DNA of 35,119 bases from a virus. The notes beneath the pieces are model-generated. The model saw only the letters and a program-made list of their open reading frames with translations, had not been told where the DNA came from and made no database searches. Both the position numbers and the translations under genes were made by a program. Shown here piece after piece: positions 26,997 to 32,110 of the stretch; position 1 is the first letter of the stretch, and every line of letters starts with the position of its first letter. Where the stretch lies: IMG/VR virus record IMGVR_UViG_3300024354_000035, positions 1 through 35,119 of that record. One strand, written 5' to 3'.

Positions 26997-27155
26997 TCAC
27001 TTCTTCGCGGTTTTTGCAGATTCTTTGAACGCTTTCGCAGTGGGCGCTCCCTTTTCCCCAGGCTTACGCATCTTTTCTACGGGTTTACCCTTGGCTTTTT
27101 CCCGCTTGATCCGCTCCTGCTTGGCGTGGATGTTCGCATAAAGTCCTGATTTCAT
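26997..27155 (-). CDS. Small Lys-rich protein
   Basis: A 52-aa frame starting MKSGLYANIHAKQERIKREK and ending KESAKTAKK. Its ATG overlaps the GroES-like stop (ATGA, 27155-27152). It is highly basic, like its two neighbours. The N-terminal motif K.GLYANIHAK.ERI is recurrent in phages. The function is unknown. Confidence 0.65.
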   Translation of the reverse strand: MKSGLYANIHAKQERIKREKAKGKPVEKMRKPGEKGAPTAKAFKESAKTAKK

Positions 27156-27412
27156 GTTTCCTCCACCACCGCGCAGATGTCGGCTTCTTGGATGATTTGA
27201 TAGTCCTGCCCATCGATTGTGTGGACAGGCCAGTTCAGATAGTCACCGTTCCCGTATTTAATGAAATCCCCAACCTGGGTTTGCTGCACCTCTGGGCCAA
27301 TCGCAACGACCGTCCCTTCGTTGAACGGTTCTTTGTTGTTGACCAGGATGATCTCGGAAATGGTTCTGACCCGTGGTTTAACTACAACACGGTCACGCAG
27401 AGGTCGAATCAT
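27152..27412 (-). CDS. GroES-like co-chaperonin
   Basis: An 86-aa protein beginning MIRPLRDRVVVKPRVR, followed by GTVVAIGPEVQQTQVGDFIK and a C-terminal strand (QEADICAVVEE), the Cpn10 pattern. The mobile loop region (ISEIILVNNKEPFNEG) is present but shorter than in bacterial GroES (about 97 aa). Phage co-chaperonins such as T4 gp31 work with host GroEL to fold coat protein. The start has the best Shine-Dalgarno in the window, AAGGAGGTGA. Confidence 0.82.
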   Translation of the reverse strand: MIRPLRDRVVVKPRVRTISEIILVNNKEPFNEGTVVAIGPEVQQTQVGDFIKYGNGDYLNWPVHTIDGQDYQIIQEADICAVVEET

Positions 27413-28557: not shown

Positions 28558-28652
28558 TTGCACATCCCCGCCAAAGTCATGATCCCGTGTTCTGCAATCT
28601 GAATCGCAGCTACGGTCACAATTGCCAGCAGCACAAAGAGTGCGACCTTCAT
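28554..28652 (-). CDS. 32-aa membrane microprotein
   Basis: Starts MKVALFVLLAIVTVAAIQIA and ends AGMCK: one hydrophobic helix. It is linked at both ends by ATGA overlaps (28652-28649 and 28557-28554), which strongly suggests translation. The function is unknown; it may be a membrane peptide or a coupling ORF. Confidence 0.55.
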   Translation of the reverse strand: MKVALFVLLAIVTVAAIQIAEHGIMTLAGMCK

Positions 28653-28957
28653 ACCACCGCCCATTCACGCTCTGATCTGCCAGACTTTGAGCGAACTCTG
28701 CGACCCGTCAGTCGGATGAAGCCCATTTGTTCAAGCTCAGATAGCCTCCGAGCCACCTGATTGCTGTCTAAGCCCGTGAAAGCGGCTATCCCATCCTTAC
28801 CCATGTCTCCATGTTTAAGCGCCTCCACGATCATTTTGTGGTGCTTGGAGGCCAATTCCTTGGCAGACTCAGCAGCCTCAAATGATGTGACGGGATCAGA
28901 TGCCCTGACTCTTGGGAATTCCAGGTCAGGAAAGAAAAGGTTTTTGAAAAGTCCCAT
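28649..28957 (-). CDS. Winged-helix DNA-binding protein
   Basis: A 102-aa protein from the ATG at 28957 (GAGGTG upstream). Residues about 20-60 contain DPVTSFEAAESAKELASKHH, and about 50-95 form a helix-turn-helix plus wing (DGIAAFTGLDSNQVARRLSE, LEQMGFIRLTGRRVRSKSGR). This MarR/winged-helix pattern occurs in phage regulatory genes beside SSB-like genes. It could regulate the leftward operon. Confidence 0.68.
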   Translation of the reverse strand: MGLFKNLFFPDLEFPRVRASDPVTSFEAAESAKELASKHHKMIVEALKHGDMGKDGIAAFTGLDSNQVARRLSELEQMGFIRLTGRRVRSKSGRSEREWAVV

Positions 28958-28965
28958 GTTGCACC

Positions 28966-29211
28966 TCAAAAAGGAATGTCGCTTGGGTTGTCATCAAACC
29001 TAGGCTTTTTTTCTTGTTTTTCTTCAATATCGTAGCAATTCGCCCAGCCAGACCAACCACCATCAACCAGGGGAATGGTGTCAATCTTGAGTTTGAGGTT
29101 GTCATCCTTGTCCAGGAATACCGTGCCGATGGTTTGGTAGCGTTTTTTCTCTTCACCAGTTTTGTTGGTGTAAGTTCCAGTGACCACAACGATGTTTTTA
29201 AATTTCTGCAT
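28966..29211 (-). CDS. Putative single-stranded DNA-binding protein
   Basis: An 81-aa protein with a beta-rich body (MQKFKNIVVVTGTYTNKTGE, KKRYQTIGTVFLDKDDNLKL) and an acidic C-terminal tip DDNPSDIPF, which mimics the D-D-x-I-P-F tail by which bacterial SSBs recruit partners. It sits between the YqaJ-like exonuclease and a winged-helix gene, as expected for a recombination/replication module. It is shorter than bacterial SSB (about 110-170 aa) and lacks recognised aromatic ssDNA-binding motifs, so the call is moderate. Confidence 0.55.
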   Translation of the reverse strand: MQKFKNIVVVTGTYTNKTGEEKKRYQTIGTVFLDKDDNLKLKIDTIPLVDGGWSGWANCYDIEEKQEKKPRFDDNPSDIPF

Positions 29212-31186: not shown

Positions 31187-31441
31187 TTAAATGTATGCGT
31201 CTGATTTTTTGTGACCGTTGCCTTGTGTAAACATGGCTTGTGCTTCGTCAGCATAGTGACCATATTTTTTGCAGAAGGCTAGTAATTTTTTGCGGACGGC
31301 TGTTGGATGCCAGTATTCATGTTCTGCATGGAGATCAAGCTCATGCAAACACAACCAACAAAGGTCTTCAATAGTTTTGTGTGAATAAAAATCGTACCCG
31401 CACACATCAGGCAATTCGTTGAGTGCTTTGTCAAATGTCAT
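31187..31441 (-). CDS. First gene of the leftward operon, unknown
   Basis: An 84-aa protein rich in Cys, His and aromatic residues (LPDVCGYDFYSHKTIEDLCW, LCLHELDLHAEHEYWHPTAV), possibly metal-binding. It has a strong Shine-Dalgarno (AAGGAG) and begins right at the divergent control region. It does not look like a CI-type repressor: no helix-turn-helix is evident. Confidence 0.65.
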   Translation of the reverse strand: MTFDKALNELPDVCGYDFYSHKTIEDLCWLCLHELDLHAEHEYWHPTAVRKKLLAFCKKYGHYADEAQAMFTQGNGHKKSDAYI

Positions 31442-31489
31442 TTGGTTTCTCCTTAAAGACCGCTTGCAAAACGCTACGGCATGGAGAGG

Positions 31490-31519
31490 ATGTTAACCTA
31501 TCTTTGCAGTCTTTGTCTA
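31490..31519 (-). promoter_or_regulatory. Candidate leftward promoter
   Basis: Read leftward, TAGACA (31519-31514; 5 of 6 to TTGACA) is followed after 18 bp by TAACAT (31495-31490; 4 of 6 to TATAAT). Its -35 lies inside the 17-bp palindrome, so binding there would block it. The -10 is weak. It is the best sigma70-like site seen before the leftward operon. Confidence 0.35.
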
Positions 31520-31533
31520 GGGACTTTCCCTAG
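31517..31533. promoter_or_regulatory. 17-bp palindromic operator candidate
   Basis: CTAGGGA-CTT-TCCCTAG is a perfect 7+7 inverted repeat with a 3-bp centre, the same length as lambda-type operators. It lies between the divergent first genes, 37 bp before the Cro-like start, and overlaps the leftward -35 candidate. It is the likely target of the Cro-like protein. Only one clear copy was seen. Confidence 0.55.
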
Positions 31534-31569
31534 TGTCTCTTTTTTGCTAATTTACCTTATCATTCGGGG

Positions 31570-31740
31570 ATGACAAAAGATCAACTCGTCCAACTCGCTG
31601 GCTCACAAGCCAAACTCGCCAGGATTCTCGGGATCAGTCGAACTGCCGTGAACTACTGGAAACAGAAAATCCCACCGCTCAGGATGTACCAGCTAAAAGA
31701 ATTGCGTCCTGAGTGGTTTAAGGCCAAATCTGATGTATGA
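31570..31740 (+). CDS. Cro-like helix-turn-helix repressor
   Basis: A 56-aa frame missed by a 60-codon cutoff: MTKDQLVQLAGSQAKLARIL, then GISRTAVNYWKQKIPPLRMY and QLKELRPEWFKAKSDV. The helix-turn-helix is SQAKLARILGISRTAVNYWK (12-31), and the PLRMYQLKEL..EW ending is typical of Cro/YdaS-type proteins. It is the first rightward gene. The Shine-Dalgarno is poor, and a TATCAT box (31558-31563) lies so close that the mRNA may be nearly leaderless. Confidence 0.82.
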   Translation: MTKDQLVQLAGSQAKLARILGISRTAVNYWKQKIPPLRMYQLKELRPEWFKAKSDV

Positions 31741-32110
31741 TGCGAACCGTCTAGAGTGGCATCTAGGCGCTGAAAGTTGTCAACGAAACCCCGCAGGGTA
31801 CTGTGTGGTCTTGTCGTGTAGCAAGCGAGTCTTTTGGACAACTTTCAATCGCCTTGCTGCTGTTCTCGCCAAGAACCAAGACCACAGAGCATCTTGCGGG
31901 GTTTTTGTTTTTGGCCTAGACCGTCAGGGCGCGATAGCTGATGGCCTGAATGGGCTGAACCCAAGAAACACCGACACTGCGACACACCCCGCAGCTTGCC
32001 GACCAGCGTTGATCAAGCGACTGGTAAAGCACAGGATACATGGTGGAAACAAGGTCTTGTGTATAAGCGAATTGATCCGTCCAGCGCACTTGGTCGCTTT
32101 TGTTTTTTAA
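31733..32110 (+). CDS. Icd/Ash-like overlapping reading frame, doubtful
   Basis: A 125-codon open frame starting on the cro stop and crossing the structured RNA. Its middle (CGVFVFGLDRQGAIADGLNG, LNPRNTDTATHPAACRPALI) resembles frames annotated as Icd/Ash-type proteins near RNA-immunity loci of phages; the VFVF is encoded by a T-run that could be a terminator. The first 55 codons coincide with paired RNA, so if a protein is made its start is probably further in. Coding status is uncertain. Confidence 0.3.
   Translation: MYDANRLEWHLGAESCQRNPAGYCVVLSCSKRVFWTTFNRLAAVLAKNQDHRASCGVFVFGLDRQGAIADGLNGLNPRNTDTATHPAACRPALIKRLVKHRIHGGNKVLCISELIRPAHLVAFVF
31748..31912 (+). ncRNA. Structured regulatory RNA with pseudoknot and terminator-like 3' end
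   Basis: Pairings seen: an 8-bp hairpin at 31748-31769 (loop GTGGCA); AAACCCCGCA (31786-31795) with TGCGGGGTTT (31895-31904); nested inside it TGTGGTCTTG (31804-31813) with CAAGACCACA (31877-31886); and GCAAGCGA (31821-31828) with TCGCCTTGC (31849-31857, one bulge). GAAAGTTGTC (31772-31781), outside the main stem, is perfectly complementary to GACAACTTTC (31837-31846) in its loop, giving a pseudoknot or alternative fold. The 3' end is a GC stem plus TTTTTGTTTTT. Function by analogy (P4 CI, P1/P7 C4 antisense RNAs) is inferred. Confidence 0.7.
31986..31994 (+). repeat. Second copy of ACCCCGCAG (first at 31788-31796)
   Basis: This 9-nt direct repeat lets the segment TGCGGGG (31895-31901) pair either upstream or downstream. 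A second repeated element, GGTCTTGT (31807-31814 and 32053-32060), follows in the same order and is complementary to 31877-31883. The layout resembles seqA/seqB/seqC of P4 immunity. Confidence 0.6.

Follow-up and report, generated by a model that had tools for sequence, protein, structure and literature searches.

The sequence analysed here, which we call the window, is the complete 35,119-bp IMG/VR virus record IMGVR_UViG_3300024354_000035. Its two ends have 17 bp in common and a near relative, L002, reads through the junction, so the genome appears to be circularly closed. Pfam and PHROG scans identified P22-like head genes, a terminase, Erf, an exonuclease, a replication-initiation gene, a holin and an endolysin. 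A leftward run of genes begins at 31,441, with the lysis genes likewise leftward, across the join, and the rightward arm is short, reaching from cro to about 34,489. The intergenic region ahead of cro is therefore the sole divergent point of the gene map: recognisable genes diverge only here, as expected from an earlier note on this DNA, which had suggested that the whole genome is controlled from one divergent spot. The features discussed below are collected in Table 1.

The ORF that begins 36 bp past the end of the palindrome in this region encodes a 56-aa protein which scores 41.9 bits against Pfam P22_Cro (PF14549; cut-off 30.2 bits), confirming that a Cro-like gene lies beside the palindrome. 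P22_Cro is also above cut-off in 22/22 long records. The earlier note had seen neither a CI-type repressor nor an integrase, and Pfam and PHROG scans of the main ORFs together with six-frame searches likewise found none in the window. Tyrosine integrases, serine recombinases and S24 domains (CI/c2-type repressors) were each found in 0/22 of the long records, absences that are provisional because these records have no completeness estimate and may be incomplete. Neither of the marks of a lambda/P22-type lysis-lysogeny switch, an S24 repressor and an integrase, was thus seen across the 22 records. When 84,980 species genomes, among which freshwater hosts are perhaps thinly represented, were searched with the Cro alignment for a prophage home, a single weak MAG match was obtained. 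In tblastn searches with Cro and TerL, the only isolates retrieved were distant ones, besides uncultured Manatee Spring genomes. The accessible portions of the literature on Cro in virulent phages, and on Polynucleobacter phages (including PMC5964084), yielded nothing about a switch of the kind described here. The virus belongs to a widespread freshwater phage group in which lysogeny genes were not found.

Table 1. Features of the divergent region and of the RNA behind cro (window coordinates).
Feature	Position	Strand	Remark
First leftward ORF, 84 aa	31187..31441	-	No family match
Leader hairpin of leftward transcript	31460..31480	-	Precedes conserved GGTCTTT
Leftward -10, TAACAT	31490..31495	-	TAACAT also in L002
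Candidate left Cro operator OL, TGTTAACCTATCTTTGCA	31491..31508		Covers leftward -10; family support
Leftward -35-like hexamer, TAGACA	31514..31519	-	Overlaps palindrome by 3 bp
Palindrome, central element (OM, a label coined here), CTAGGGACTTTCCCTAG	31517..31533		Predicted upstream element of early promoters
Candidate right Cro operator OR, TGCTAATTTACCTTATCA	31545..31562		Covers rightward -10
Rightward (cro) -10, TATCAT	31558..31563	+	Ends 6 nt before ATG
P22-Cro-family protein, 56 aa	31570..31740	+	Start codon at predicted transcription start (leaderless)
Conserved pseudoknotted RNA	31748..31912	+	Ends in terminator-like hairpin and U-run
Pseudoknot strand P2 5'	31771..31781	+	Pairs with 31837-31847
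Long helix P3 5' arm	31786..31813	+	Pairs with 31877-31904
Pseudoknot strand P2 3'	31837..31847	+	Pairs with 31771-31781
Long helix P3 3' arm	31877..31904	+	U-rich tail after

The 17-bp palindrome described as perfect in the earlier note is present, but it is not unbroken: two 7-bp arms enclose a 3-bp unpaired centre, and its core, TAGGG-N5-CCCTA, occupies 31518-31532. When the 128-bp intergenic region is dinucleotide-shuffled, 5.1% of the shuffles contain arms of at least 7 bp with a gap of at most 10, and the window contains 8 palindromes with arms of at least 7 bp and a gap of at most 4. Taken alone, the palindrome is weak evidence and could be chance. The search for it elsewhere in the genome, which had been proposed as a check, returned a single copy even with up to 3 mismatches allowed, and no second TAGGG-N5-CCCTA with 1 mismatch was found in the window; a genome-wide regulon of such palindromes is ruled out by this single copy.

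Chance is ruled out by the conservation of the palindrome at a fixed place in relatives, which carry an element of the form TARGK-N5-CCCTA 34-38 bp before cro. A scan found TAGGG-N5-CCCTA at a distance of 25-42 bp ahead of ATGACNAAR in at least 119 stretches, against 14 for a control of the same composition with the arms swapped. Of the 80 matches listed, 67 open a complete P22-Cro-like protein and a further two a truncated one, and the gaps between element and cro concentrate at 35, 37 and 38 bp. In a set of loci fetched by protein, for which the motif was not used, the 15-bp form TARGK-N5-CCCTA precedes cro in 59 of 71 distinct upstreams; in a second protein-fetched set the figure is 9 of 31, and the rate in letter-shuffled sequence is 0.0002. 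The 22 upstreams of the second set that are without the element belong mostly to more distant Cro relatives, and groups without it (e.g. L016-L042) carry other sequence at that place. We conclude that the palindrome is real, because it is conserved in relatives.

The earlier note had taken the palindrome for the operator of Cro, and it could be pictured that bound Cro blocks the leftward promoter, whose -35 overlaps it. The palindrome is of a size for a dimer and stands beside the Cro gene, and PY54 Cro binds a single 16-bp palindrome, according to the accessible part of the paper on that phage (PMC4488713). We nevertheless consider this reading unlikely. The arms are nearly constant in relatives whose Cro recognition helices are many and vary widely, the element also occurs in promoters without cro, the overlap with the -35 is absent in L002, and most relatives have a separate look-alike pair of sites over the -10 boxes. 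Since the arms do not change with the recognition helix of Cro, the palindrome is probably not Cro's own site.

This flanking pair, OL and OR, offers better candidates. Look-alike 18-mers over both -10 boxes (p<=0.05) were found in 74 of 102 upstreams (e.g. L018, L003, L023), although in the window alone the resemblance falls short of significance, being reached in 54 of 400 shuffles. The pattern TGNWAA-N6-TTWNCA, drawn up post hoc, matches just OL and OR in the 35 kb, where 0.19 matches are expected. Given the rest of Cro, the recognition helix shows a partial correlation of 0.36 with the OR region (0/500 permutations) and of 0.03 with the OM arms, in a pool of 100 upstreams that was partly motif-selected and in which the right OM arm is constant by selection. 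Judged from these comparisons, OL and OR are likelier Cro operators than the palindrome, and the Cro sites probably flank the central element. The Cro-type operator candidates cover both promoters, not only the one arm for which repression was first envisaged.

We then considered where the transcription of cro would start. In 134 of 135 upstreams the cro ATG follows 4-7 nt after the end of a -10-like hexamer (0.146 for random four-position windows), and in 108 of the 135 such a hexamer has the same offset as in the window. A Shine-Dalgarno-like sequence before cro was found in 0/135. From this spacing and the missing Shine-Dalgarno sequence the cro mRNA is predicted to lack a leader, and it looks leaderless. 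The accessible part of the PY54 paper (PMC4488713) describes such a case, a leaderless cro mRNA that begins at AUG. Measured from the predicted leaderless starts, the centre of the OM dyad falls at -42.5 to -45.5, and at about -44.5 in the window; a class II activator has its dyad close to -42 and beside a weak -35. Lambda CI is likewise positioned near -42 at PRM, and the location of OM would therefore suit an array of three operators, with Cro on OL, OM and OR at different affinities and OM giving a CI-like self-activation at about -42. We regard this array as quite unlikely: OM has the half-site TAGGG, unlike OL and OR, whose half-sites in the window read TGNWAA, and OM does not track the recognition helix.

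The element is also found upstream of sigma-70-like promoters away from cro. L191 carries further copies, ahead of other leftward genes, of one unit made up of the element, a TTGAC -35, a TATAAT -10 and a leader hairpin. This leftward promoter unit is seen three times, before different leftward genes, in L191 (5170-6280) and L204. Scanning for the element together with a promoter yielded 80 listed loci, in which 75 modules are distinct. A divergent cro-like ORF accompanies 18 of the 75 listed modules by a loose rule and 14 by a strict one, leaving 57 and 61, respectively, with no divergent cro; in the reversed-arm control (72 listed modules) there was no cro. The gap from element to TTGAC is exactly 11 nt in 46/75 listed modules versus 11/72 in the control, and an A-tract lies between the two in 53/75 versus 7/72. 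The yields of scan and control are both lower bounds, and the two are compared here by spacing, A-tract and cro counts alone. Some of the 75 modules are surely chance, because the control pattern also yields many matches. Most probably the palindrome serves early promoters as an on-switch element that can be reused, rather than Cro as a docking site. That it is an extended promoter or UP-type signal read by RNA polymerase itself, and no site for a protein dimer, would agree with the fixed 11-nt gap and the A-tract between element and -35, but is very unlikely, as an A/T-rich UP element would not usually have GGG and CCC arms in dyad symmetry, and the window keeps both arms without an A-tract.

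A complete module was not found in the window, whose leftward promoter has neither the 11-nt gap nor the A-tract. In L002, the closest relative, the leftward -35 is TTGACG, 10 bp from the element; with respect to L002, about 10 bp of the leftward promoter have been lost in the window, so that the element now overlaps the -35. The overlap pointed out in the earlier note thus exists, but L002, with its -35 10 bp away, lends no support to its being meaningful. Since the leftward promoter of the window departs from the module, the role of the element there may differ from that in relatives. The leader of the leftward transcript is itself recurrent: 68 distinct leader segments have a hairpin followed by GGTCTTT, and the letters of the stem covary (e.g. 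CCGC/GCGG, CCAC/GTGG).

The stretch of RNA behind cro folds far better than its shuffles (z -5.2). A 19-base pattern taken from it detected 52 contigs besides the window, and 41 distinct sequences align. In the proposed structure 98.0% of cells are paired, and the alignment holds 92 both-sided changes, compared with 20.2 in shuffles, 52 of the 92 falling in helix P2. A cro-like gene lies within 1.5 kb ahead of the RNA at 29 of 53 places. The RNA ends in a predicted intrinsic terminator by sequence, a CCCCGC/GCGGGG stem followed by UUUUUG. No Rfam family matches the RNA of the window, which does not reach the gathering score of the covariance model for the int-alpA RNA (RF02996). The RNA device that had been proposed for the arm opposite to the repressed one is therefore real as a covarying structured RNA, but it adjoins cro downstream, on the rightward arm. 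Its terminator-like end and its position, with cro before it and the replication gene after it, suggest that it may gate the right arm.

The int-alpA RNA was itself observed directly behind cro in L016, L023, L311, L323, L332 and others, the same place as the RNA of the window. Relatives that lack the RNA of the window may thus carry this one close to cro: it is above the gathering score in 4/15 loci of one set and 5/20 of another; in L018 and L010 a match occurs also or only farther from cro. By this position, the orphan motif belongs to an early operon headed by Cro. The accessible literature on the int-alpA RNA held nothing about it beyond the entry in one paper's table.

The region is genuinely a centre of regulation, with the promoter element central and the RNA on cro's arm. 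Resting on the sites, their conservation, the module away from cro, the leaderless layout and the RNA structure, all of which are properties of the sequence, the reading that we think probable is that of a divergent early control region of a phage without detectable lysogeny genes, with three DNA sites, OL, OM and OR, in a row. Cro would probably bind OL and OR, over both -10 boxes, and turn down both arms. OM would be the upstream promoter element for a dimeric activator other than Cro, either host-encoded or a phage protein kept group-wide, acting from about -44.5 of the predicted cro start and, in relatives, from 11 bp upstream of the leftward -35. The cro transcript, predicted to be leaderless, would then meet the pseudoknotted, terminator-like RNA, which could gate entry into the replication arm. 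The pairing of each protein with its site, the direction of each effect and the gating by the RNA are what we infer from this arrangement.

A wider version of this proposal is possible, and we offer it tentatively: one host transcription factor may serve many freshwater phage lineages through a conserved dyad, TAGGG-N5-MYYTA, that stands 11 nt ahead of the early promoters. Lineages bearing Cro would have the dyad between divergent promoters, the host factor turning them on and Cro turning them off, a timing circuit without lysogeny in which the pseudoknotted RNA would gate the replication arm.

Several known systems resemble this arrangement in part. In lambda the early arms diverge, Cro operators (OL/OR) lie over the promoters, and a terminator, tR1, follows cro. 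The window shares the divergent arms, candidate Cro operators over the promoters and a terminator-like RNA behind cro, but has no CI, PRM or integrase, has an extra central element, and carries a pseudoknotted RNA in place of nutR/tR1. The profile of the relatives matches P22 Cro (PF14549; structure 1rzs) over positions 1-51 (E 1.6e-9), and, as in the P22 Cro family, the gene is divergent and beside early operators, here candidate ones; unlike in that family, the protein of the window has 56 aa, a CI/c2 partner was not detected, and the candidate operators are one per -10 with an unrelated element between them. The PY54/N15 immB switch, in the accessible part of its description (PMC4488713), also has a small Cro, a palindromic site and a leaderless cro mRNA, a feature predicted here; PY54, however, is temperate with a CI, which was not found here, and in it Cro has one binding site, which lies upstream of cI, whereas the palindrome here is probably not a Cro site. 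Pantoea phage PdC23 (OL396571) likewise has just one Cro-like gene, which diverges from a left arm with Erf, and replication genes on the right, but its Cro is 50% identical and its upstream has no such element.

A lambda-like early switch can thus be kept by a phage group without detectable CI or integrase, and an RNA family outside Rfam is indicated. The conserved promoter element offers a direct route to its binder and, if a host factor reads it, would reveal the physiological signal that starts the early genes of widespread freshwater phages. In the left arm, a 106-aa winged-helix-like protein (28649-28969, minus strand), with weak Pfam matches that are all below cut-off, is a possible second regulator, and a GroES-like co-chaperonin gene lies at 27152-27412, also on the minus strand.
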